A stretch of 38,459 nt of DNA. Source: Bacilli bacterium (GTDB lineage Bacteria > Bacillota_I > Bacilli_A > RF39 > UBA660). The translations under genes and the position numbers were made by a program. Location: NCBI GenBank assembly GCA_017432665.1, contig JAFRIS010000009.1, positions 1 to 38,459 of the forward strand, read 5' to 3'. Position 1 is the stretch's first letter, and each line of letters begins with the position of its first letter. Positions 2,775 through 33,075 of this stretch are shown here, in pieces. The notes under the pieces are model-generated. The model was not told the origin of the DNA. It was given only the letters and a program-made list of their open reading frames with translations, and searched no databases.

Positions 2775-2872
2775 GCGTGATGCATATCACGCCGATATCT
2801 CTAACGATCTATTGTTAGAGTATATTCAACCGAACCCCCTGAAGACACTGTCGTGAGACAGTGTCACTTTTT
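2775..2872 (+). ncRNA. Stand-alone small RNA with C-rich linker and terminator
   Basis: A transcript of about 98 nt with no ORF. Stem 1 is GCGTGAT/ATCACGC (2775-2781, 2786-2792) with a 4-nt loop; stem 2 is CTCTAAC/GTTAGAG (2799-2805, 2814-2820); then comes an unpaired linker containing AACCCCCTGA (2833-2842); stem 3 is the terminator GACACTGTC/GACAGTGTC (2844-2852, 2857-2865) followed by five T. A single-stranded C-run between hairpins is typical of Gram-positive regulatory RNAs that bind Shine-Dalgarno sequences (RsaE/RoxS style). Several genes here have G5 ribosome sites that could be targets. Family not recognised; function is inferred. Confidence 0.75.
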
Positions 2873-2975
2873 ATATATTGATGTGTATATGATTTTAGAA
2901 CTTAAAAAATCAATAATAAGTTTTAAAGTAAATTAAAGAAATATATGATATAATTTATTTGTATAGAGGAGTGTC

Positions 2976-3827
2976 ATGATGAAAGAGAAAAAAATAATAA
3001 TAATTACTGCTGTACTAAATGCCTTAGTAGCTTCTTTAAAATTAATATTAGGAATTACTTTTTCATTTTCTACATTAATTGCTGATTCAATTCAATCATT
3101 TATTGATTTTTTTACTGATTTAATTAGTATGGTAACTAATAGAATTGGTAAAAGAAGGGCAAATAAAACATATCCTTTTGGATATGGTCAAGTATACTAT
3201 TTGTCTAATCTTCTTACAGGAGTTTTATTGTTCTTAATAGGTATCTTTATTATTTATCAAGTTTGTACTGCAGAAAATAAGTTTACTCCTAATATAACAG
3301 TTTTATTAATGTTAATAGTAGTTTTAGCACTTAAATGGATTGTTATTGAATTACTACAGCGTTATTCAAAGAGTAGTAAAAATGAATTGATGGTTGAATC
3401 CTATAGAGAATCAATGGCAGATTTCATATCTACTTGTGTGGTTATAGTAGTATTACTCTTTTCATTTGTTGAAGAATATTTACCAATACATATAAATATT
3501 GATATGATTGGAAGTATTTGTATGGCTATATATGTGTTCTATACTTCAATAAAGATGATTATATCGAATATTCAAGGTATTCTCATAAATGATGAACATA
3601 ATGATGAAATTAAAGAAGATATAATGAAAGAATTAGAACATTTCAAGGATTTACGTATTAAAAATCTTAGAATAATAAAAATTTCATATTATTATAGTGT
3701 ATATCTACAAATAGATGTAGATGATAATATTAAAATAAAAGATTTTCTTAAAATTGAAAAAAAGATTAAACAACGTATAAGAAGCATTAATAACTTAATT
3801 AAGTTTATTGATGTAGAACCATTATAA
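2976..3827 (+). CDS. Cation diffusion facilitator (CDF) metal transporter
   Basis: A 283-residue membrane protein of the CDF family, which exports divalent metal ions such as Zn, Mn, Fe or Co in exchange for protons. About six hydrophobic helices fill residues 1-205 and a cytosolic domain follows (residues about 210-283), ending VEPL. The family hallmark in helix 2, ADSIQSFIDFFTD, has Gln where Zn transporters have His or Asp (QxxxD), and the helix 5 site RESMADFIS has Glu (ExxxD). The metal site is thus Q/D plus E/D, so specificity cannot be assumed to be zinc. ATG 2976 or 2979 both fit GAGGAG at 2966-2971. A -10 TATAAT lies at 2949-2954. Confidence 0.9.
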   Translation: MMKEKKIIIITAVLNALVASLKLILGITFSFSTLIADSIQSFIDFFTDLISMVTNRIGKRRANKTYPFGYGQVYYLSNLLTGVLLFLIGIFIIYQVCTAENKFTPNITVLLMLIVVLALKWIVIELLQRYSKSSKNELMVESYRESMADFISTCVVIVVLLFSFVEEYLPIHINIDMIGSICMAIYVFYTSIKMIISNIQGILINDEHNDEIKEDIMKELEHFKDLRIKNLRIIKISYYYSVYLQIDVDDNIKIKDFLKIEKKIKQRIRSINNLIKFIDVEPL

Positions 3828-3830
3828 AAA

Positions 3831-3855
3831 AAGATATCCATTTGGATATTTTTTT
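3831..3855 (+). terminator. Terminator of the CDF gene
   Basis: Stem GATATCC/GGATATT with ATTT loop, followed by a T-run, directly after the CDF stop codon. Confidence 0.75.
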
Positions 3856-3930
3856 ATGTTTGATGTATATTTCTATAGATATTTAACTGTCTTTATGCTA
3901 AAATTATTATGATAGGGAGGATTGATTAGT

Positions 3931-6087
3931 GTGGACAAGGTGTTATCATTTTTTACAAATGCTGGATTTTCAATAAGTTCTATTTGTATTTGTTTAATTG
4001 TACTTTTTGCATATTTTTTAAAGACACGTGAAAAGAAATTGGAATATCAAAGTAAATTCTTTGTAGTTTACTTAATTTCAATTATTGTAATGAGTCTTGC
4101 GGAAGTTGCTTATGTACTATATTTTTTGAAACATGGTATGAATGGCAGATATGCAGAAGTTATGTATGATATCTATTCTGTTGCCATTTTATTTGCAACA
4201 CTTAGTGCTTGGATGTTTGTTATTTCCTATCGTTCTAATGTCTTGTTAGATAAGAAAACTAATAAAAGTTTTAAAGTGGCATTTTACTCAATAGTTGGTG
4301 TTATTGAAATAGTTATTTGTGTGTTGGTTTTTCTATTACCAGTTAGAATTTATCAAAATTACGGAATATATAATTTTGATAGTATTTCAATTACCACAAC
4401 ACTTGTATATGTATTGATTTCAACTACTGGGTTTATTTTCTTATTATATTTTAAAAATAAAAATGTTACTAAAAATGATCTAGCACCAATTGTAACTTCA
4501 GTAGTAATACTATGTTTATTATTGGTATATAGAATGATTAAACATATAGATATTAATATTGAAACATTCCAGCTTACAATATTCGCATTAGGAATATTCT
4601 TTACTGTTGAAAATCAGGATTATAAGTTGTTAGACACGGCTAGACAGAAACAAACTGCTGCTCAAAATGCAACTAATTCACAAAAAGATTTCTTAGCTAA
4701 TTTATCACATGATTTTCGTTCTCCTATGAATACGATTTTAGGACTTAGTCAATTAATGTTAAAAGAGCCAACAATCACAAGTGAAAGTGCTCATGATGAC
4801 ATGGAAAATATTCATGAAGCATCAACTTCATTAATATCTTTAATAAATAATATAACTGATTTTTCATATTCAGTTTCTGATAAAGGAGAAGTTAAAAAGG
4901 AAAACTATGATATTTATGATGCAGTTTTTGAAATAAATGACAGTGTTGTAAAAGAGGCAACTGATAAAGGCATAGAATTTAGTTTTAGTATTAGTGATAA
5001 TGTACCTAGAAAACTACAAGGTGATTCTAAAATGATAGTTAAGGCTCTTGAGGGTATTATAGGTAATATTGTTTCACATTCAAATACAGGACAAATAACT
5101 TTAGAAGTAAAAGGTGAAAAGAAAGATAAAGAAGTATACCAACTTGAATTTATCGTAAAAGCTACTGGTACAGGTATGAAACCAGAAAAATTTAAATTTG
5201 ATGAAGAATCAGATATCGGATCAGATTATAGTAAAGCTTTAAATAGTGATGTATTAGGTTTAATAGTTGCTAAGAACTTAATTGAAAAATTAGGTGCAAA
5301 AATTGGATTCTCTGAAGAAGTTGGATATGATTTAATTATTGATCAAGAAATTGGAAATTCAACTAACAGTGAACCTGTAGATAAGGTAATAGAAGAAAAA
5401 CCTGCAGTGGCAGAATTAGAAAAAGAATTGGTTAAAGAAAAGAATGAAGAAGTTTCTGAGGCAAAAGAAGAGCCTAAATCAGAAGAGTCAACTGAAGAGA
5501 AAAAAGAAGAAGTTTCTGAAGTAAAGGAAGAAACTAAATCAGAAGAGTCAACTGAAGAGAAAAAAGAAGAGGTTTCTGAAGTAAAAGAGGAACCTAAATC
5601 AGAAGAATCAACTGAAGAGAAAAAAGAAGAAGTTTCTGAAGAAAAAGAAGAACCTAAATCAGAAGAACCAGTTGAAGAAAAGAAAGAAGAAACTTCTGAA
5701 ACAAAAGAAGAACCTAAATCAGAAGAGTCAACTGAAGAGAAAAAAGAAGAGGTTTCTGAAGTAAAAGAGGAGCCTAAATCAGAAGAATCAACTGAAGAGA
5801 AAAAAGAAGAGGTTTCTGAAGTAAAAGAGGAACCTAAATCAGAAGAACCAAAATCAGAAGAACCAACAGAGGAAAAGAAAGAAGAAACTTCTGAGGTAAA
5901 AGAAGAAACAAAATCAGAAGAACCAGTTGAAGAGAAAAAAGAAGAAGTTTTTGAGGTAAAAGAAGAGCCAACAGAGGAAAAGAAAGAAGAAACTTCTGAG
6001 GTAAAAGAAGAATCTAAATCAGAGGAATCAGTTGAAGAAAAAAAATTAGAAACTACTTCAGAAGAAGGAGGTGTTTCTAATGCTTAA
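3931..6087 (+). CDS. Membrane sensor with His-box but degenerate kinase domain, E/K repeat tail
   Basis: A 718-residue protein with about seven membrane helices (residues 1-230), a dimerisation/His-phosphotransfer box around LSHDFRSPMN (His260 present), then a domain placed like a histidine-kinase ATPase (about 330-470) that has lost key residues. The G1 box DxGxG reads ATGTGM (Asp to Ala), the first Asn of the N box is Gly, and the GTGLGL lid reads SDVLGL. ATP binding is therefore unlikely, while the acceptor His remains. Residues 480-718 are a Glu/Lys/Ser/Val tail of 20-residue repeats. GTG 3931 is chosen because AGGGAGG (3914-3920) is too close to an upstream TTG at 3922. The stop overlaps the next gene by 8 bp, so the two are translationally coupled. 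Confidence 0.85.
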   Translation: MDKVLSFFTNAGFSISSICICLIVLFAYFLKTREKKLEYQSKFFVVYLISIIVMSLAEVAYVLYFLKHGMNGRYAEVMYDIYSVAILFATLSAWMFVISYRSNVLLDKKTNKSFKVAFYSIVGVIEIVICVLVFLLPVRIYQNYGIYNFDSISITTTLVYVLISTTGFIFLLYFKNKNVTKNDLAPIVTSVVILCLLLVYRMIKHIDINIETFQLTIFALGIFFTVENQDYKLLDTARQKQTAAQNATNSQKDFLANLSHDFRSPMNTILGLSQLMLKEPTITSESAHDDMENIHEASTSLISLINNITDFSYSVSDKGEVKKENYDIYDAVFEINDSVVKEATDKGIEFSFSISDNVPRKLQGDSKMIVKALEGIIGNIVSHSNTGQITLEVKGEKKDKEVYQLEFIVKATGTGMKPEKFKFDEESDIGSDYSKALNSDVLGLIVAKNLIEKLGAKIGFSEEVGYDLIIDQEIGNSTNSEPVDKVIEEKPAVAELEKELVKEKNEEVSEAKEEPKSEESTEEKKEEVSEVKEETKSEESTEEKKEEVSEVKEEPKSEESTEEKKEEVSEEKEEPKSEEPVEEKKEETSETKEEPKSEESTEEKKEEVSEVKEEPKSEESTEEKKEEVSEVKEEPKSEEPKSEEPTEEKKEETSEVKEETKSEEPVEEKKEEVFEVKEEPTEEKKEETSEVKEESKSEESVEEKKLETTSEEGGVSNA
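5461..6060 (+). repeat. Tandem 60-bp repeat coding an E/K-rich tail
   Basis: About ten imperfect units with an exact 60-bp period over most of the tract, each coding a 20-residue unit like EEPKSEESTEEKKEEVSEVK. Near the 3' end (about 5850-5990) units are partly shortened. The reading frame is kept throughout, so copy number can change in 20-residue steps. Confidence 0.9.
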
Positions 6088-7957
6088 TGTAATGTATTCT
6101 AGATATGTTTTAACAATAGCAGCGTTTGTAGTTATTATTATGATGGATGTTTTATACTTTTCCAAAGCTAAGACTAATAATAAAACTAAGCATAAGATGT
6201 ATTCATACCTAATTATTGTTAATACATTTCTATTATTATTAGAACTTATAATAATGGCATTATTTGGTATTGATGCTCCATTTACTACTTGTGTAGTGGC
6301 TATGAAAATAAGAGATTTATTCTTAATGGGTTATTTCATAGTAGTATTGTTTTATTACTATACAGCAGTTAATGATATAGAGCACAAGAGCCTTTGGGAA
6401 TTTTTGAAAAGTGAAAAAATTATTTATCCACACTTAATATTCACAATAATTGTTCTAATTGTTCATACATTCTTACCATATAATGAAATGGATAAATATA
6501 CATATAGTAATGCTTTTGGTGGATTAGCTTTCTACTTAACAATTGCTTATTGTGTAATTACTACATTAGAAACTATTTTCATTATACTTTTTAAGAATAA
6601 AAAAGGAATTAATTATTCTGAGAAATTAAGTCTTGTTTTATTATTCTTCTTAATGATGATAATATTAATTTTCCAAACAATATTTAGTGGAGTAGCTATT
6701 ATGGGATTAATTTCATCAATCTATATCATTGGATTATACTTCATTTTTGAAAATCCAGATTTAGAGTTAGCAGAAGAAATAAACTCATTAACTTTAGAAG
6801 CAGAAAGAGCTACTCATTCAAAATTAGATTTCTTATCAAATGTATCTAAAGAAATGATTACTCCAATGAATACGATTACTAAATTAAGTGGAGATATTCT
6901 AAATGGAAAAGAAACTGATTCTGATAAAATAAAAGATGATGTTGTACAAATAGAATTAGCAAGTAAGAATTTCTTAGAGATACTTAATAATGCGATTGAT
7001 ATTTCTAATGTTGATAATGAAAATGATGCTTTATATGAGAGTAATTATTCATTAACAACATTATTAAAGAGTTTGACTAAAGTTGCGCAAGAAAAAGTAG
7101 TTAATAAGAAAGTTCAAGTAGTATTAAATGTTGATAATGATATTCCAAACAATCTATATGGAGACTCTACTAAGATTTATCAAATATTATTAAATATTTT
7201 ATCTAATTCCATTAAATTTACTGAAGTAGGTAAAATTGGTATTCGTTTAAATCAAGAGATTAAAAATAATAAAATTATCTTGAAATTTAAAATTAGTGAT
7301 ACTGGTTTTGGTATTAAAGAGGAAGACTATGATAAAGTGTTTAAACAATATACTAGACTTGATGATGCTGTTTCAAGAGGTATAGAGGGTACTGGATTAG
7401 GATTGGCTATAGCTAAACAATATGTTGATTTACTTGGAGGAGAAATTAGTTTTGAAAGTATTTATGGTGCAGGCACTACTTTCTATGTAGAAGTACCACA
7501 ACAAATCGTAGCTATGATACCTACTTTAGGAGAAGTAACTGATGAAGATGAAAAAGATGAAGAAGATAAGAAACTATTAGATTGTTCTAAATACCGATTA
7601 TTGGTAGTAGAAGATGATAAGTTAAATTTAGAAGTTACTAAGAGATTACTAAAAAGATATGGTTTTATAATTGATACTTGTTCTAATGGAAAAGATTGTG
7701 TTTTTAAATTCAAAAAAGGAGAACACTACGACATGATGTTAGTGGATCATATAATGCCAGAGATGGATGGTGTTGAAGTAGTAAGAGTAATTAGAAAGTT
7801 AGATGATTATAAAGCACCTCCGATAGTAGCTTTAACAGCTAATGCATTTACAGGTTCTAGAGATATATATCTAAAAGAAGGATTTGATGATTATTTAGCA
7901 AAACCTATTGATATGACAGAACTTGATACATTAGTAAATAAGTATTTTAAAAAATAG
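6080..7957 (+). CDS. Hybrid sensor kinase lacking the acceptor His, with receiver
   Basis: A 625-residue protein: about seven membrane helices (1-230), a His-box region where the canonical SHExRTPLN reads SKEMITPMN so the acceptor is Lys257, a well-preserved ATPase (N box NILSNSIKFT, G1 SDTGFGI, F box, G2 GTGLGLAI), and a C-terminal receiver (about 505-625) with VVEDD and phospho-Asp in LVDHIMPEMDG (Asp556) and the KP motif. It cannot autophosphorylate in the usual way but should bind ATP. ATG 6080 follows AAGGAGG at 6064-6070 and overlaps the upstream sensor gene, whose defects are the mirror image. Together they may form a working heterodimer. Confidence 0.88.
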   Translation: MLNVMYSRYVLTIAAFVVIIMMDVLYFSKAKTNNKTKHKMYSYLIIVNTFLLLLELIIMALFGIDAPFTTCVVAMKIRDLFLMGYFIVVLFYYYTAVNDIEHKSLWEFLKSEKIIYPHLIFTIIVLIVHTFLPYNEMDKYTYSNAFGGLAFYLTIAYCVITTLETIFIILFKNKKGINYSEKLSLVLLFFLMMIILIFQTIFSGVAIMGLISSIYIIGLYFIFENPDLELAEEINSLTLEAERATHSKLDFLSNVSKEMITPMNTITKLSGDILNGKETDSDKIKDDVVQIELASKNFLEILNNAIDISNVDNENDALYESNYSLTTLLKSLTKVAQEKVVNKKVQVVLNVDNDIPNNLYGDSTKIYQILLNILSNSIKFTEVGKIGIRLNQEIKNNKIILKFKISDTGFGIKEEDYDKVFKQYTRLDDAVSRGIEGTGLGLAIAKQYVDLLGGEISFESIYGAGTTFYVEVPQQIVAMIPTLGEVTDEDEKDEEDKKLLDCSKYRLLVVEDDKLNLEVTKRLLKRYGFIIDTCSNGKDCVFKFKKGEHYDMMLVDHIMPEMDGVEVVRVIRKLDDYKAPPIVALTANAFTGSRDIYLKEGFDDYLAKPIDMTELDTLVNKYFKK

Positions 7958-7984
7958 ATTTAGTTGTTAACTAAATCTTTTTTT
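7956..7984 (+). terminator. Terminator of the sensor-kinase pair
   Basis: Ten-bp stem AGATTTAGTT/AACTAAATCT with a 3-nt loop and T-run, beginning in the stop codon. Confidence 0.85.
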
Positions 7985-8010
7985 GACAAAATAATAAATA
8001 TAAGTATAAT
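7983..8010 (+). promoter_or_regulatory. Promoter of the 116-residue gene
   Basis: TTGACA (7983-7988), 16 bp, TATAAT (8005-8010). The -35 overlaps the T-run of the preceding terminator. Confidence 0.75.
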
Positions 8011-8034
8011 AAATGACACATTTGGGGGATTATT

Positions 8035-8385
8035 ATGAGAGTTAGAGATAATTTTAAGGAAAATAAAAAGGAAGAATTAAAGGATAAAATAAAAGTTACT
8101 GTTTTGGCAGTAGCAGTAGCAACAGTTCCAGCTGCTACAGTATATAAAATAGAACAAGATAAAATGGATACAATGCAAATGTATTATGAAACATTATTAG
8201 AAGAAGAAAAAGAGAATTCCTATATGAAAGGTTTTTTAGATGGTTTATTTGGAGTTGAAGACAATTTCTTTACTCCTGTAGATGCTGATATAAATGAACG
8301 TTTAATCGAAACGGGTGATTTAGTAATAGAAATGCCTGAAAAAGAAAAAACGCTAGTTTATGTTAAAAAGGATATCAAATATTAA
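8035..8385 (+). CDS. Small single-helix membrane protein, unknown
   Basis: A 116-residue protein with a basic and acidic N-terminus of about 22 residues, one Ala/Val-rich membrane helix (TVLAVAVATVPAATVY, about 23-40), then an acidic extracellular or cytosolic tail of about 75 residues. No family recognised. The start is ATG 8035 after a GGGGGA ribosome site. It has its own promoter and terminator, so it is a separate unit just after the sensor-kinase pair; a link to it is not shown. Confidence 0.75.
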   Translation: MRVRDNFKENKKEELKDKIKVTVLAVAVATVPAATVYKIEQDKMDTMQMYYETLLEEEKENSYMKGFLDGLFGVEDNFFTPVDADINERLIETGDLVIEMPEKEKTLVYVKKDIKY

Positions 8386-8399
8386 TTTGATATTTTTTT
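8372..8399 (+). terminator. Terminator after the 116-residue gene
   Basis: Stem ATATCAAAT/ATTTGATAT with ATTA loop and seven T; the stop codon lies in the loop. Confidence 0.8.
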
Positions 8400-8430
8400 A
8401 TGATATAATAATTAAGGAGGCAAGGACATA

Positions 8431-8451
8431 ATGTGTAAAAAAGAGGAATGA
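8431..8451 (+). other. Six-codon leader ORF (MCKKEE) before the Nudix gene
   Basis: The strongest ribosome site here, AAGGAGG (8414-8420), precedes ATG 8431, which opens only six codons and stops at TGA 8449-8451, five bases before the Nudix ATG. The second, weaker site (GAGGA) lies inside this mini-ORF. It may couple or modulate translation of the operon; it could also be a chance ORF. Confidence 0.4.
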
Positions 8452-8455
8452 TACT

Positions 8456-8983
8456 ATGAAAGAAATACTATATAATCCTGATAATTTAAGTAGTAAAGAT
8501 ATAGATGAAGTTATTATTAGAACTAAAGGTTTAATAATAAATAGTAATGATGAGATTACATTGGGATATGCTCATAAAACATATCAATTCCCAGGAGGAC
8601 ATTTAGAAGAAGGAGAAAAATTAGAAGACTGTTTATTAAGAGAAATAAAAGAAGAAACTGGTATAGAGATAAAAGATGCGGTTATAGAGCCTTTTATAAA
8701 GACTACATATTATACAAAAAATTATCATGATAGTGGAAAGAATAGGCAAAATGATATTTATTTTTATGTTGTTAAGACAGATGCCAAATTTGATATGGAT
8801 AAAGCTAATTTAGATGAGGGAGAAAGACATGGAGGATTTACTGCTAAGACTTTACCGTTAGAAGGAATAGAACAAGTATTAATAGAGAGTATTCCTGATA
8901 ATAAGATTAACGAAGTAATCGTAAACGAGATGTTAGAAGCACTTAAAGAGTATAAAGGGAGTATAAGTGAAAAAGAAGGTTAG
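8456..8983 (+). CDS. Nudix hydrolase
   Basis: A 175-residue Nudix-fold pyrophosphohydrolase, which cleaves nucleoside diphosphates linked to another group, using Mg. The Nudix box GX5EX7REUXEEXGU is complete: GGHLEEGEKLEDCL then LREIKEETGI (residues about 45-67). Substrate cannot be read from the sequence; being in one operon with a macrodomain protein makes an ADP-ribose derivative a reasonable guess. A TATAAT at 8404-8409 starts the operon. ATG 8456 is preceded by GAGGA; the 3' end overlaps the next gene by 17 bp, so translation is probably coupled. Confidence 0.92.
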   Translation: MKEILYNPDNLSSKDIDEVIIRTKGLIINSNDEITLGYAHKTYQFPGGHLEEGEKLEDCLLREIKEETGIEIKDAVIEPFIKTTYYTKNYHDSGKNRQNDIYFYVVKTDAKFDMDKANLDEGERHGGFTAKTLPLEGIEQVLIESIPDNKINEVIVNEMLEALKEYKGSISEKEG

Positions 8984-9704
8984 AATAATGTTAATTGCGG
9001 CAATAATATCAACAATTATTATTAAAATATTGTCTAATACTAGTAGTGTATTATATCCTAAAGCTAAAGTTACTGGTGATGGTAAAATAAAAATAGCTTG
9101 CTTAGGAGATAGTATTACTTATGGATTAGGAGTAGTAAGTAATAGAGATAATGCCTGGGTATCTTTGTTAGTTGACAGATTAGGTAATAACTATAAAACT
9201 ATTAATTATGGATTAACTGGTAGAACATTATTATCTAGTGGTGATATGCCATATATGAAAGAAAAATTAGCCAAGAGATTTTGGAATAGAAAAGAAAATA
9301 TCATAATACTTATGTTAGGTACTAATGATACAAAAGAAATTAATTGGGATTATGATAAATATAATGAAGAATATAGAGAATTACTTGATAAGATATTAGA
9401 TAAGAAGAGTGATTCAAAAATATATATTATGATTCCTCCACAAATATATATTAATAAACCTGGTAAGACAGATCCTAATCGTGATAATTTAGAGAATGGA
9501 GTAGTTCCAATAATTAGAAAGATAGAAAAAGATTATAAAGATATAGAAGTAATAGATTTATATTCTTATACATTGGATCATAAAGATTGGTTTACTGATA
9601 ATCTTCATCCTAATAAAGAAGGTAATAAGGAAATAGCCAATGAAATTAGTAGAATAATAAAGGAGACTTATAATGAAAAAAATATTAAAAGAGTATCTAA
9701 ATAA
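8967..9704 (+). CDS. SGNH/GDSL-type esterase or lipase-like hydrolase, membrane-anchored
   Basis: A 245-residue SGNH hydrolase. An N-terminal hydrophobic segment (about 5-25) suggests export with the enzyme outside the membrane. Block I is CLGDSITYG with the nucleophile Ser, block III is LGTNDT with the oxyanion Asn, and block V is DNLHPN with catalytic Asp and His. Likely substrates are acyl or acetyl esters of cell-envelope glycans or lipids, but none can be named. GTG 8967 follows AAAGGGA; an in-frame ATG at 8988 is an alternative that would shorten the signal segment. Second gene of the Nudix-macrodomain operon. Confidence 0.9.
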   Translation: MKKKVRIMLIAAIISTIIIKILSNTSSVLYPKAKVTGDGKIKIACLGDSITYGLGVVSNRDNAWVSLLVDRLGNNYKTINYGLTGRTLLSSGDMPYMKEKLAKRFWNRKENIIILMLGTNDTKEINWDYDKYNEEYRELLDKILDKKSDSKIYIMIPPQIYINKPGKTDPNRDNLENGVVPIIRKIEKDYKDIEVIDLYSYTLDHKDWFTDNLHPNKEGNKEIANEISRIIKETYNEKNIKRVSK

Positions 9705-15732: not shown

Positions 15733-15763
15733 ATGTTATAATTTATTATAGAGGGTGATGTAT

Positions 15764-18700
15764 ATGCCAAGAATTAATATTAACGAGTATTTATACATTG
15801 ATTATGAATTAGAATCAGATAATAGTGTTGAAAATATTGAGCAATACAGTATTCCAAGAAAAGAAAGTATTAAATTACATAATATCCCTAATGGGATTAT
15901 GTTTTATGATGAAAAAGAAGGCATTATACGTTTAAAAAGTGGAATAAATTGGGTAGAGATACTTAAGTTTGATAAAGATACAGGTGAGTTCAAGTGGTTA
16001 ATTAATCCATTAGATTTTATAACGACATTAGAAGTGACTAATGAATACTTAGATAATGGTACTAATGCTAACTATGCTAGAAATACTGAAATATTTGATG
16101 AGCAAAGGAAAAGAAAAAGAGGAATTCTTCCAAGCATAGATACTGAAAGAGAACTTCACACTCATTTTATTCAAGTTTTGAGTGCTGAACAATTATTAGA
16201 TTTTTTGGAATCTCAAGGTGTAAAATCAATTTTTTGTATTAAAGGACCAGCAAAAGCTATAGCAATTATTCCAGAAGATGATTATATAAAATTAACGGTT
16301 GCTCAAATAGAGAAAAAATATAATTGTAAAGCAATTAGTATTGAAGAAGCGAAAAAAGAACCAAAAATTCTTGATCAATTATCCGCACCAATTGATACTA
16401 ATACTGATTTTGAGTATTTTGAAAGTTGTTTTCCAATGCGTTCTGCACTAATATCGTTAGCTTGTTGTAGCGCTAAAGATAATAGTCAACAAGAAGGCAT
16501 TGATGAAATAAGAACATTAAATGAAGAAATTGAAGCAATAGAAAAGACGATTAAAAGTTTAGAAGAAGATTATAATAAAGAATATGTTGGTTTAATCAGG
16601 ATAAAAGAAATACGTGAACAGATTGAAAATGAAGACAGTCGTAAAAAGGCATTAGAAAAACTAAATGATGAGATTAAAGAATTAGAAAATCGTGATTTAG
16701 AAGCTATTAAAAAGGAATTAGAAAGTAATCTTGCAAGAAAAAAGAAATTAGTTCAAGAAAAAAGAGAAGTTGTATTGATAGAGACTTATAAAGACTTATT
16801 TGCTAAAAGTTTGGAAGTCTTAAGAGATTATGGTGTCAAATATGTTGAATTCAGTTATTCAAATATAGAACGAATAAAGAAAATGATTGAAGGATTTCCT
16901 GGTGTTGAAGGTATTGATTTTAAGTTCTTAATAAGTCAACATCGTAAGGATAGTGAAGGTAGTGCTCTAATAGGAGCATGTAAGGTTTTATCAGAAATGC
17001 TTAGTGATGATAAGCATAAAGATAAAATAGCCGGTTTTGATTTGATGGGAATGGAAGATAGAATTAGAGATCCCGAAGATTTTATAGATAGCGGTAAAAA
17101 GTGTAATACTTTACGCACAAAATTAGAATATGCTATTACAGGAATGTTAGAAGGTTCAATAGATTCAGAAAAGAAACCAGTATTACGTCTACATGCCGGT
17201 GAAATATATTATGAAGAAGGCAATCCTAATTTAACTTTAGAGATTCTTAAACAAATAGAAGATGCGATAAGGAATGAATATGCAGAAATATATTCTATAC
17301 TTAACGATTATAAAAATAACGGTATAGAGGATATAGAAGCATTGTATAGAAACCATAAAAAATATGAATTTTTGGTGAACAAAAGTAATATTGATAGTTT
17401 AAAGAGATGGATAAAACAGAAGAAAAAACTAAATAGTGCAAAAAATCCCGAGAGTAAAAAAGTTCAAAAGATAGCTAAAGAATTAAGTCAAATTGAAAAA
17501 CAACTTGAAGATATTCTTGGTACTGATATCATGTCTAAACTTAACAACACTATTATTTCAAAATTTGAGAGTGGTGATATTTCTGAAGATGATATTGTCG
17601 ATGCAATTATTACTGAAGAATTAAAAGTTTTAGAGAAAGATTCCATAAAATATAGAATTATTACTGAAGTTGAAAGACAAAGTCTTTCTGAAGAGGAGTT
17701 AGAAGTAGAAATAGAAATACTAAAAGATTTAAAAGATAATTTTTGCTTAAAAGATAGATTAGAAATAAGAGTTGGACATGGACTTCATTTTAAAGAAACT
17801 AAAGAATACTATGAAATGTTAAGACATTTTGGAGTTATAGTTGAACTATGTACAAGTTCAAATACTAAATTGGGTAATATGAAAACGCTAGATGAAATAC
17901 CTTATGATAAATATGTTGTAGAAGGGATACCTGTTGTTGTAGGAACTGATGGAGAAGGATATTTTAGAGATTCTATGAAACAAGAAGCAAGTTTAATTTC
18001 TGCTATTTCTGAAGGTAAAACAGATACTATGACTGATTCAAATGATCCTGATAATGGTCCGAAAAAGCCAAGCAAAATGGATAAGTATTTAGGTCATTTT
18101 CTTAGTGGATGGACGATTCATTCTAAATTAAGTAAAACTGCAAAAGGACTTAATATGGATGTGACAGTTGAAGAATATATGTCTTCAGTTAATAATAGTA
18201 ATGCTCTATTTATGGAAGGTTATGATAATGCTGATGGCAAAAAGAAGTATGTCAATAATTACTTTAAGAATCTTTACATTATTAACGGAGATAGAAATTC
18301 AAAAGAGATTGAAAGGTTAAAAGTTGAAATTGGAAAAGCATTTAACTTTATTATGGATATGCAATCAAACGAACTTTATTTTAGTAATTCTGAATTGCAA
18401 TTAGTTAAAAAGAATCTTGATAAAATTGAAGAATATTTTAAAGAAGAAAAATATGTTAAAGCAGCTATACTTTTAGTATCATTGCAAGCAGTGATGGGAT
18501 ATCAAACAGATTTGGTGGAAGTATTATATTTAATGAAAGAAAATAATTTAAGTTTTTCTCAATGCTTAAAGACAAAAGTAATTAACAAATATAAATTTGA
18601 TGAAATGGATCGTATCAATAACGATAATGTTAAAAATAATAATTTAAGACCACGATCATATATAAATATTCATGGTGATCACTATATGCAGTATGCATTT

Positions 18701-19132
18701 ATAAAGAAATACTATAATGAAAAATCTTATTTAAGAAAATTAACTATCGAATATAAAAAATTGTTGGCTGCCATAGAAGAAAGTCCTAAAAAGGATGACT
18801 ATAAAGTTATGTTGGTTGTTGATGATATTTGTAATCTTATGCATAGACTTTATAATTGTGAAAATGATCAAAAATATTACTTTGATAATAAAAATATTAT
18901 AAGGGCTACTTTCCTAATTATAGGTTTAGGAAAGAGTTTAGGAATTGATGTTGACTTACCTGAAAATATTATTAATAATAAAAGCCATGATATGAATGAT
19001 TATGTGGCTGATAGTAATAATGATATTATTAATGATGCTGAATCGATTGATAAAAAAGATTCTGAATCAGATGACTATTTAAAAGACAAATACGACTTAT
19101 ATTCAAAAGAAACTAAAAAAAGGAAGTATTAA
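15764..19132 (+). CDS. Giant adenosine-deaminase-like amidohydrolase
   Basis: A 1122-residue protein, about three times a normal adenosine deaminase. Scattered through it are the ADA motifs: ELHTHF (metal ligands His132, His134), LRLHAGE (His477 and the catalytic Glu480), VGHGLHF (His672), VELCTSSNTKLG (from Glu694), and GTDGEGYF (metal ligand Asp729; the second Asp of the usual TDD is Gly). About 340 residues, including a coiled coil near 240-340, separate the first two motifs. An N-terminal beta-rich part and a C-terminal helical part of about 370 residues are unassigned. Probably a cytosolic purine (or base) deaminase with added regulatory or assembly domains. ATG 15764 follows GAGGGTG. 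The next gene begins 3 bp later. Confidence 0.82.
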   Translation: MPRININEYLYIDYELESDNSVENIEQYSIPRKESIKLHNIPNGIMFYDEKEGIIRLKSGINWVEILKFDKDTGEFKWLINPLDFITTLEVTNEYLDNGTNANYARNTEIFDEQRKRKRGILPSIDTERELHTHFIQVLSAEQLLDFLESQGVKSIFCIKGPAKAIAIIPEDDYIKLTVAQIEKKYNCKAISIEEAKKEPKILDQLSAPIDTNTDFEYFESCFPMRSALISLACCSAKDNSQQEGIDEIRTLNEEIEAIEKTIKSLEEDYNKEYVGLIRIKEIREQIENEDSRKKALEKLNDEIKELENRDLEAIKKELESNLARKKKLVQEKREVVLIETYKDLFAKSLEVLRDYGVKYVEFSYSNIERIKKMIEGFPGVEGIDFKFLISQHRKDSEGSALIGACKVLSEMLSDDKHKDKIAGFDLMGMEDRIRDPEDFIDSGKKCNTLRTKLEYAITGMLEGSIDSEKKPVLRLHAGEIYYEEGNPNLTLEILKQIEDAIRNEYAEIYSILNDYKNNGIEDIEALYRNHKKYEFLVNKSNIDSLKRWIKQKKKLNSAKNPESKKVQKIAKELSQIEKQLEDILGTDIMSKLNNTIISKFESGDISEDDIVDAIITEELKVLEKDSIKYRIITEVERQSLSEEELEVEIEILKDLKDNFCLKDRLEIRVGHGLHFKETKEYYEMLRHFGVIVELCTSSNTKLGNMKTLDEIPYDKYVVEGIPVVVGTDGEGYFRDSMKQEASLISAISEGKTDTMTDSNDPDNGPKKPSKMDKYLGHFLSGWTIHSKLSKTAKGLNMDVTVEEYMSSVNNSNALFMEGYDNADGKKKYVNNYFKNLYIINGDRNSKEIERLKVEIGKAFNFIMDMQSNELYFSNSELQLVKKNLDKIEEYFKEEKYVKAAILLVSLQAVMGYQTDLVEVLYLMKENNLSFSQCLKTKVINKYKFDEMDRINNDNVKNNNLRPRSYINIHGDHYMQYAFIKKYYNEKSYLRKLTIEYKKLLAAIEESPKKDDYKVMLVVDDICNLMHRLYNCENDQKYYFDNKNIIRATFLIIGLGKSLGIDVDLPENIINNKSHDMNDYVADSNNDIINDAESIDKKDSESDDYLKDKYDLYSKETKKRKY

Positions 19133-30531: not shown

Positions 30532-33075
30532 ATGGACGGAGTTTATAATTTATATATACCGGTATGTGCATTGATTACTGTAATTATTTGTACTGTTGTA
30601 TTTTTTTCGAAAGAAAGAGCAAAAAATAAGGAAACTGCCATATTTTCTCGTGTATTAATTTATAGTCTAGTTGATTGTATTTTGATGGTCATTATTATCA
30701 GTCTAGCACTATTTCATAGTGAGAGTATTGCGCTAATGAAGTTTTTAAACAAAGTTGATTATGCAATGTATATTCTGTTTTCAAGCAATTTTTTCTTGTA
30801 TGTCTATTATGTAACTTCAAAAGAGGACAAAGATCAAAAGGTAAAATTATATATGTTTTTCTTTTATCTTACTACTGTCTTAGATATTATATTAATGATT
30901 TTATTATTGTTTATGAATGTAGATGTTCATATTGAAGGAAATGCCATGTACAGTGATGGCATGGCTTTAACAAGTACACTGGTAGGATGCGCTTTATATT
31001 TTATAGCTATCATTATTTGTTTAATTATAAACTTTAAAAAAGCTATTACTAGAAAGTTAACACCATTATATGTGCTTATTCTATTCTTTGGTCTAGTTTT
31101 TGTTTTAAATCAAGTTGATAAGACAATTGTTATTATTTCTATGGTATTAGCTTATGTTAATTTAATTATGTTGTTTACTATAGAAAATCCTGATATGAAG
31201 ATGGCTAAAGCTTTAGAAGTAGCTCGTGAACAAGCTGATAAAGCTAATCGAGCTAAAACAGAGTTCTTAAGTAGTATGTCACATGAGATTCGTACACCAT
31301 TAAATGCCATAGTAGGATTTAGTGGTGAAATACTAGAAGCTAAGGATTTAAATGAAGCTCAAGAAAATGCTAATGATATAGTTAATGCCTCCGAGACATT
31401 ATTAGAGATAGTTAATGGTATTTTAGATATTTCTAAGATTGAGGCTGGTAAAATAGAGATTGTTAGTTCACCATATAATGCTCATGAAACATTTGATGAA
31501 TTGGCTAAGTTAATTACACCTAAAATGAAAGAAAAAGGATTAGATTTCTCATATAGTATTGCTCCGGATTTACCAGGAACTTTATATGGAGATCATGCCA
31601 ATTTAAAGAAGATTGTTACTAACTTACTAAGTAATGCTTGCAAATATACAGAAAAAGGATATGTTCGTTACGAAGTAAATTGTATTAATACTGATAATGT
31701 TTGTAAATTAATTATTTCAGTAGAAGACTCCGGTCGAGGAATTAAAAGAGAAAATGTTGATCAATTATTTACTCAATTCCAAAGATTAGAAGAAGACCGT
31801 AACACTACTATTGAAGGTACTGGACTTGGATTAGCAATTACTAAGCAGTTAACTGAGTTAATGGGTGGTAGAATTATTCTTCATACTGTATATGGGGAAG
31901 GTTCTAAGTTTACGGTTGTTTTAAATCAAAAAATTGAAACTGTTCAAGTTCAAGAGAAGAAGAAAACTAAAACTACTCTTGAATTAAAGGATGTTAAGAT
32001 ATTATTAGTTGATGATACTCCTTTAAATTTAAAAGTTGCAACTAAATTGTTAGAAAGATATGGAGCTAATAAAATAACTTCCTGTGAAAGTGGTTTTGAG
32101 TGTATTGATAAAATTAAAGCAGGTGAACAATTTGATTTAATTTTATTAGATGATATGATGCCTAAGTTAAGTGGTACTGAAACTTTAAAACAATTAAAAG
32201 AATTAGCTGATTTTAAGACTCCAACTGTTGCGTTAACAGCTAATGCTATTACTGGAATGAGAGAAAAATACTTAGCTGATGGATTTGATGATTATTTGGC
32301 TAAGCCAATAGATAAAGAACAATTGGTACAAGTTATTAATCAAATATTAGGTAGAAGTGTTACTGAAGAAATAAATACTGAAGAAATAAAACAACAGGAA
32401 CCAAAATCTACGGAAATAGTTGAAGAAAAAACTGAAGATTCTAATAGTGAGGAAAAATCTAAAGACAGTAGTATTATTCCAGTAGAAGAGAATATTGAAG
32501 AAATGCTTGGTGAAAAACTAGATAGAACATTTAGTGAGGAGGAAGCAAAGATGAATAATAATTTAGATAATAGTATGGAAACTAGTACAGAACCGGTAGT
32601 GGAAACTCTTGTAGCCGAAGAAATTAAAGCTGTTCCTCCGGTAGAAGTAGCACCTATTGAAGATCCATTCGCAGAAGATGATAAGGCAATTACTCCAATT
32701 GCAGAAGGAGTCTATGACCGTAGTTATTTAGAAGCTAATGGGGTAGATGTAGAACATGGCTTAGAATTGCTTGGTGATATGCAAATGTATAATGATACTA
32801 TCGCAGACTTTGTCAGTGAAGTAGAAACAAAATGGGCTGATATTGTAAGATATAAGGAAGAAAACAATATGCCTGAATATGCTATTTTAGTTCATTCATT
32901 GAAGAGTGATTGTAAATACTTAGGATTTATGACTTTAGCTGATATTGCTTATCAACATGAATTAAAAAGTAAAGAAAATGATAGTGCTTTCGTTAATGAT
33001 AATTTTGCTAAATTAGAAGAAAATTATAATAAAGTACTAGAGGTTGCTAAAGAATATGTAAATCACAATAAATAA
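30532..33075 (+). CDS. Full hybrid sensor histidine kinase with receiver and HPt
   Basis: An 847-residue membrane sensor: about seven helices (1-225), His box SHEIRTPLN (His251), intact ATPase (N box NLLSNACKYT, G1 EDSGRGI, F box, G2 GTGLGLAI), a receiver (about 485-605, LLVDDTPLN, phospho-Asp540 in LLDDMMP), an acidic linker (about 605-725) and a C-terminal HPt domain (His788 in HSLKSDCKYLG). All phosphorelay residues are present. It resembles the sensor genes at 3931 and 6080 in layout and junction (ENPD before the coiled region), so all three are probably paralogues and this one the complete version. ATG 30532, AGGGAG upstream. No separate response regulator lies nearby. Confidence 0.93.
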   Translation: MDGVYNLYIPVCALITVIICTVVFFSKERAKNKETAIFSRVLIYSLVDCILMVIIISLALFHSESIALMKFLNKVDYAMYILFSSNFFLYVYYVTSKEDKDQKVKLYMFFFYLTTVLDIILMILLLFMNVDVHIEGNAMYSDGMALTSTLVGCALYFIAIIICLIINFKKAITRKLTPLYVLILFFGLVFVLNQVDKTIVIISMVLAYVNLIMLFTIENPDMKMAKALEVAREQADKANRAKTEFLSSMSHEIRTPLNAIVGFSGEILEAKDLNEAQENANDIVNASETLLEIVNGILDISKIEAGKIEIVSSPYNAHETFDELAKLITPKMKEKGLDFSYSIAPDLPGTLYGDHANLKKIVTNLLSNACKYTEKGYVRYEVNCINTDNVCKLIISVEDSGRGIKRENVDQLFTQFQRLEEDRNTTIEGTGLGLAITKQLTELMGGRIILHTVYGEGSKFTVVLNQKIETVQVQEKKKTKTTLELKDVKILLVDDTPLNLKVATKLLERYGANKITSCESGFECIDKIKAGEQFDLILLDDMMPKLSGTETLKQLKELADFKTPTVALTANAITGMREKYLADGFDDYLAKPIDKEQLVQVINQILGRSVTEEINTEEIKQQEPKSTEIVEEKTEDSNSEEKSKDSSIIPVEENIEEMLGEKLDRTFSEEEAKMNNNLDNSMETSTEPVVETLVAEEIKAVPPVEVAPIEDPFAEDDKAITPIAEGVYDRSYLEANGVDVEHGLELLGDMQMYNDTIADFVSEVETKWADIVRYKEENNMPEYAILVHSLKSDCKYLGFMTLADIAYQHELKSKENDSAFVNDNFAKLEENYNKVLEVAKEYVNHNK

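Follow-up and report, generated by a model that had tools for sequence, protein, structure and literature searches.

The tandem kinase locus

The window considered here is the whole stretch of 38,459 nucleotides of contig JAFRIS010000009.1 of a Bacilli bacterium (assembly GCA_017432665.1, a genome of 1.19 Mb in 47 contigs, 71% complete), and at positions 3931-7957 it carries two overlapping genes for membrane sensor kinases, gene 1 and gene 2, which show opposite defects in their active residues. The lineages to which the two belong are called U (upstream kinase) and D (downstream kinase), and handles with G, C, L and g indicate genomes, contigs, loci and genera, respectively. The features of the pair are the following:

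3931-6087, plus strand: gene 1, U (open reading frame and translation, Pfam, position in the U clade of the tree)
4681-4866, plus strand: HisKA domain (dimerisation and histidine phosphotransfer, DHp) of gene 1, residues 251-312 (Pfam PF00512, E 1.3e-12)
4708-4710, plus strand: codon of His260 of gene 1, the sole phospho-acceptor His of the pair in the window (translation)
5161-5178, plus strand: degenerate G1 box ATGTGM of gene 1, residues 411-416, Asp lost (translation, alignments)
5245-5262, plus strand: degenerate G2 box SDVLGL of gene 1, residues 439-444, GxGLGL lost (translation, alignments)
5436-6045, plus strand: Glu/Lys-rich tandem repeat tail of gene 1, main unit 60 bp (Tandem Repeats Finder)
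6067-6071, plus strand: GGAGG Shine-Dalgarno of gene 2, inside the final codons of gene 1 (EGGVSNA) (sequence)
6080-6087, plus strand: 8-bp overlap of gene 1 and gene 2, ATGCTTAA (sequence)
6080-7957, plus strand: gene 2, D (open reading frame and translation, Pfam, position in the D clade of the tree)
6848-6850, plus strand: codon of Lys257 of gene 2, at the phospho-acceptor position (translation; Lys in 4/4 orthologues)
7160-7504, plus strand: intact HATPase_c of gene 2 (Pfam, E 3.9e-24), with DTGFG at 7298-7312 and GTGLGL at 7388-7405
7601-7936, plus strand: receiver of gene 2 (Pfam PF00072, E 2.1e-22), with phospho-acceptor Asp556 at 7745-7747

Gene 1 starts with a GTG at 3931, stops at 6087 and encodes 718 amino acids (aa); a TTG at 3922 is an alternative start, and of the two it is the GTG whose distance from the GGGAGG at 3915-3920 is more favourable. 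The protein is composed of a multipass membrane N-terminus, a HisKA domain, a degenerate HATPase and a Glu/Lys repeat tail, and is devoid of a receiver. HisKA scores 48 bits against a cut-off of 26.9 and contains the acceptor His260 within the motif SHDFRSPMN; the match to HATPase_c is weak (29.2 bits against a cut-off of 26.4), and the set of N, G1 and G2 ATP-binding boxes is not intact, G1 and G2 being degenerate. The repeat tail, about 200 aa long and made of about 7 copies of the 60-bp unit, was absent from the original prediction, and so was the placement of the gene 2 Shine-Dalgarno within gene 1.

Gene 2 (ATG at 6080, stop at 7957, 625 aa; an in-frame GTG at 6071 is also a possible start) encodes a multipass membrane N-terminus followed by a HisKA domain without the acceptor His, an intact HATPase and a receiver. 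Its HisKA reaches 12.8 bits, under the Pfam cut-off, and Lys257 takes the place of the acceptor within SKEMITPMN, while HATPase_c (85.7 bits) and Response_reg (79.8 bits) indicate that ATPase and receiver are intact. The mirror-image defects originally predicted for the two genes are confirmed for gene 1 (His260 kept, ATP-binding residues lost) by translation, alignments and Pfam scores, and for gene 2 (Lys for His, intact ATPase, receiver Asp556) by translation and Pfam; their overlap of 8 bp also proved correct.

Four genomes (that of the window, G026, G008 and G019) share the overlap and the coupled ribosome site; a junction with the Shine-Dalgarno of gene 2 in the end of gene 1 is also present in relatives. 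In G019 the orthologues of gene 1 and gene 2 are on separate contigs, each of which ends in the repeat, and the contig with gene 2 opens with the remainder of a U tail, EEGGASNA-stop, overlapping the start of gene 2. A misassembly through the repeat tail, whose repeats are also found in the kinase on C24, was considered improbable: the repeat-free G026 and G008 have the same gene order and junction, as does G019, whose contig breaks within the repeats.

Distribution and states of the pair

Gene 2 has orthologues, 59-62% identical, in another three species of the genus (G026, G008, G019), all with Lys at the His position, and each of them has a gene 1 orthologue upstream that has kept the His and lost the ATPase boxes. 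The genome of the window contains two more tandem kinase loci, on C36 and C24, which brings its U-D loci to three altogether. Searches with gene 1-type profiles covered about 390 genomes of the family plus two further genera, and the loci were then read; the resulting sample consists of 41 tandem pairs in which U and D could both be resolved, and it spans several genera within a single family.

In 24 of these 41 pairs a U with the His and a dead ATPase stands beside a complete D, and in 13 the same type of U stands beside a D that has lost the His and has a live ATPase; both members are complete in three. The remaining pair, L132 (G424:C8, 70-3746), has a U without the His (replaced by Arg) and without ATPase, and a D that keeps both: it is an exception still consistent with the rule that every pair has at least one acceptor His and at least one live ATPase, which holds in 41/41. 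The residues that replace the acceptor His in D are K, Q, V, Y and S, and the loss is always found beside a dead-ATPase U that has kept its own His. The complementary state recurs over the 41 pairs and is therefore more than chance.

The original prediction would have been contradicted by homologues that carry the same defects and occur alone, and none came to light: each U or D gene that lacked its partner lay at a contig end, and in G019 the contig still keeps the end of the U tail; this result, from mainly U-led sampling, is strong and not exhaustive. The orphan check comprised 52 U and 48 D genes, repeats included (some loci were fetched twice), and a D-led search was made in the home genus. 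Genus g58 also has single kinases, and these were assigned to a third, stand-alone type. A class-level sample of 395 genomes yielded no relatives outside the family at E 1e-150, and more distant ones are possible.

Two irregularities were also noticed. L129 (G428:C8:51000-60546) shows at 2836-9547 a U-D-U-D row with Tyr for His in both D genes, the last one cut by the contig end; L082 (G062:C53) and L170 (G023:C37), contigs of 7.8 kb from two genomes placed in different genera, are 99.8-100% identical, and one contig has probably been cross-binned.

Evolutionary history

In a tree of U and D built without the motif columns all upstream genes form one clade (support 98) and all downstream genes another (support 100), with the stand-alone kinases, including the one at 30532-33075 of the window, falling outside the downstream clade. 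The complete pairs of genera g20 and g127 are intact and branch first in both the U and the D clades, which argues for one duplication and one loss of the U ATPase followed by losses of the D His. Three such losses are needed on the D-gene tree (bootstrap range 3-3), and a single origin is rejected (approximately unbiased test, p 1.4e-6); the three origins are the clade of the window (K), the C10 locus of G008 (Q) and genus g58 (Y, V, S). The tree of U and D, unlike the more careful one of the D genes, is a quick one with long branches, in which fast rows (for example L132 and L046) have no certain deep place, and the count of three losses does not rest on such rows alone. Distances among U and among D mirror each other (r 0.89), a value as high being reached in 0/2000 permutations.

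Residue conservation follows the same division. Among 41 U proteins with a dead ATPase the His is kept in 40 and the Arg at +3 in all 41; the Asp of the G1 box is gone in 40, and the glycines of the G2 box vary. Conversely, none of the 13 D proteins without the His deviates at the Asp or either glycine of the G1 box, at the Asn of the N box or at the Asp of the receiver, whereas the His site (Y/K/V/Q/S) and the phosphatase residue at +4 are among the most variable positions. The ratio of nonsynonymous to synonymous substitution rates (dN/dS) in close species pairs is 0.04-0.25, alike for U and D, which points to purifying selection on both genes in close relatives.

These data show the motif states, the adjacency, a single origin for each lineage, the order and number of the losses and the selection on both genes. 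The pair arose when an ancient tandem duplication of a complete hybrid kinase gave the sister lineages U and D; the ATPase of U was lost first, and the His of D, by then redundant, was lost three times, which would have locked the partners together. On balance it appears probable that the family holds a natural, obligate, reciprocally broken hybrid-kinase heterodimer produced by a one-way ratchet of one duplication, one U ATPase loss and three D His losses, with all the intermediate stages still living.

Proposed mechanism and alternative explanations

We infer that U and D pair via their DHp helices and that gene 2, owing to its intact ATPase, would phosphorylate His260 of gene 1 in trans; the phosphoryl group would then move from His260 to Asp556 of the gene 2 receiver, from there to an Hpt domain and finally to a response regulator. 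In pairs with a His-lost D the acceptor is only on U and the live ATPase only on D, therefore the usual reaction can charge the pair only from D to U in trans. It is quite likely that gene 1 and gene 2 together make up one hybrid histidine kinase, an obligate heterodimer in which D phosphorylates U; the original prediction had already proposed an obligate heterodimer, and it gains support from the three losses of the D His, which occurred only beside a His-keeping U with a dead ATPase, and from the intact ancestral pairs.

AlphaFold2 monomer models of the kinase cores are confident, with a mean predicted local distance difference test score (pLDDT) of 82 for gene 1 and 88 for gene 2, and the gene 1 model is weak between the G1 and G2 boxes (pLDDT about 45, block 201-210). 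Foldseek and VIA-align give GacS (Z 20.3) and RetS (Z 19.3, root-mean-square deviation 3.0) as the best matches for the core of gene 1; the gene 2 model superposes best on HK853 and YycG-type cores. Since gene 1 shares the signature of RetS, and RetS and GacS form a DHp heterodimer, a heterodimer of U and D is plausible.

The same resemblance is compatible with a different role for U, that of a RetS-like pseudokinase which is no kinase substrate, binds D and either inhibits it or dephosphorylates its receiver via HExxT. In fact, U bears the degenerate HATPase and the kept H-box of RetS, RetS is among the top structural matches of the gene 1 model and is described as a transmitter phosphatase and phosphate sink for GacS (PMC5992135), and such a role would suit the 24 pairs whose D has remained complete. 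It is unlikely: in the 13 pairs from three origins D is without the His, so there would be no way to charge the D receiver that U should dephosphorylate, and the ATPase motifs of D are invariant precisely in these pairs, in which a RetS-like U alone would leave the D ATPase without substrate. Moreover, the His is among the most conserved sites of U, and the +4 residue of U is Ser in the clade of the window. The strict adjacency of U and D, their coupled translation and their mirrored trees speak for one-to-one partners and make it very unlikely that the same division of labour is achieved without a DHp heterodimer, either by homodimers of U and of D in a larger complex or by a non-cognate D that also phosphorylates U; the whole DHp is also kept in both proteins. 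Cross-talk would be possible with three U-D loci in one genome, and in the CheA3/CheA4 precedent the halves meet in a larger signalling cluster (PMC3591291).

The pair might also be decaying, or gene 2 might be phosphorylated on Lys257 or another residue with gene 1 as a leftover, as the fast evolution of gene 1 and the loss of its receiver in the clade of the window could suggest. This is highly improbable given the long open frames, the invariant ATPase and receiver motifs of D and the purifying selection in close relatives; in particular, Lys257 was rejected as an unlikely new phospho-acceptor because the substitute is not the same from one origin to another (K, Q, Y, V, S).

Some observations weigh against trans phosphorylation within an obligate heterodimer. 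Gene 1 of the clade of the window has a dN/dS of 0.56-0.69 (NG86) against distant orthologues, a rough comparison; gene 1 evolves fast, and a relaxed function in this clade is therefore possible. Many kinases require an acidic residue following the acceptor His; gene 1 has Asp there, but G026 has Gln, and both G019 and G023 have Gly. The C24-type U (L040:2340-4193, L048, L049, L050, L051) has Ala there, in SHAIRTPMN, conserved in five species, which makes it difficult to see how that His could be phosphorylated efficiently. Furthermore, HK853 and YycG are cis kinases, and the superposition of gene 2 on them is no test of handedness. Trans phosphorylation would require the right DHp handedness, and the monomer models are compatible with either cis or trans; hybrid kinases may act in both ways (PMC4734776).

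Possible phosphorelay partners

A receiver is still present in most U proteins and is lost or ruined in the clade of the window, where U has no working receiver; the receiver of gene 2 is therefore the sole one left in the pair, and this is the same complementarity once more. In several other genera an Hpt protein and a REC-HD_5 response regulator are encoded before or after the U-D pair, an arrangement that would provide a full His-Asp-His-Asp relay. No Hpt or REC-HD_5 genes lie beside the pair in the genome of the window, which elsewhere encodes an Hpt-REC protein (C6) and Hpt domains on the 30532-33075 kinase and on C19, as well as a Spo0A-like regulator (C10, named from sequence) and an OmpR-type one (C25). 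The Hpt of the 30532-33075 kinase is a possible candidate for the relay.

The C24 downstream kinase (L040, G000:C24, 1-6391) runs from HK-REC into 60-bp Glu/Lys repeats of the gene 1 type and then reaches the contig end, and contig C19 (L153, G000:C19, 1-795) begins in such repeats and continues into an Hpt; the whole C24-type downstream protein in G026 has 1086 aa with the layout HK-REC-linker-Hpt. The Hpt of C19 is probably the end of the C24 kinase, and the 60-bp repeats seem to be common to paralogous loci (5436-6045 of the window, C24 and C19).

Other kinases and genes

A further kinase of the window is the following:

30532-33075, plus strand: complete stand-alone hybrid kinase HisKA-HATPase-REC-Hpt (Pfam, tree, Hpt search in the own genome)

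This protein had been described as a complete hybrid kinase of the same layout as the pair; Pfam agrees that it is complete, whereas the tree assigns it to the more distant, stand-alone type outside the U and D lineages, and it is not the direct template of the pair. The tree likewise rules it out as the ancestor of gene 1 and gene 2.

Partly degenerate ATP boxes are also seen in kinases of the family that fall in neither the U nor the D clade (L092:1396-3564, L089:5782-7953, L101:4862-6679, L112:8415-9206), and some of them, near a complete kinase, might be separate cases of pseudokinase evolution. The window also encodes, at 15755-19132, a 1125-aa protein of which only residues 671-746 match adenosine deaminase.

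Comparison with known systems

Histidine kinases are textbook homodimers, and annotation pipelines would label either gene of the pair a dead or partial kinase, although together they are probably one enzyme. The family preserves the path from a duplicated complete kinase to a half-dependent pair and then to one in which neither subunit is self-sufficient, a final step taken three times. It makes testable the general question of whether molecular complexes become obligate via complementary decay, and offers natural material on what decides between cis and trans phosphorylation.

Searches of an open-access library brought up no account of hybrid kinases that have lost residues reciprocally, nor of such loss evolving repeatedly. 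The original claim that no split kinase of this layout had been described is only partly true, since FasB/FasC is a published tandem heterodimer (PMC12675982), though not one of hybrid kinases with reciprocal residue losses. What is notable here is repeated reciprocal loss in hybrid kinases; split and heterodimeric kinases were already known. FasB and FasC of group A Streptococcus (FasBCAX), the nearest of the known systems in their working, are encoded in tandem and give heterodimers and no homodimers in two-hybrid assays; FasC can do without its own kinase domain, and the proposal is that its His246 is phosphorylated by the kinase domain of FasB (PMC12675982). The likeness lies in adjacent kinase genes, one product being proposed to phosphorylate the His of the other; in fact, adjacent, co-inherited kinase genes with complementary active residues are what the 41 pairs show, with no internal orphans. 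Unlike U and D, FasB and FasC are non-hybrid (six transmembrane segments, DHp, HATPase), have no receiver and signal to FasA; FasB still has candidate His residues, and neither reciprocal residue loss nor repeated evolution is described for them.

His and ATPase are located on separate proteins, active only as a mixture, in CheA3/CheA4 of Rhodobacter sphaeroides (PMC3591291), and acceptor His and ATPase are likewise on different proteins in Hik36/Hik43 of Synechocystis (PMC7656254). Both systems belong to the CheA class and were split by the loss of whole domains; in contrast, U and D are not CheA-type but HisKA membrane hybrid kinases that keep the full DHp and catalytic and ATP-binding (CA) folds and have lost residues.

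RetS and GacS of Pseudomonas aeruginosa show a heterodimeric DHp interface in the crystal (PMC12148439; 7N0E), and RetS combines a degenerate HATPase with a kept H-box (PMC5992135), as gene 1 does. However, GacS is complete and is inhibited by RetS, and neither needs the other for phosphate entry, unlike what is proposed for the pair of the window. Gene 2 is not such a complete partner, having Lys257, and the His is lost in 13/41 paired D.

DivL of Caulobacter has Tyr in place of the acceptor His. It is a HisKA-type pseudokinase that works with another kinase and has been repurposed as a response-regulator sensor (PMC4211667); unlike D, it is not the ATPase half of a tandem pair. For EnvZ and tripartite kinases, complementation in vitro between G2-box and His mutants shows trans phosphorylation (PMC4734776). 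Those mutants have the same two defects, introduced artificially in one protein, whereas in U and D the defects are fixed in two natural genes.

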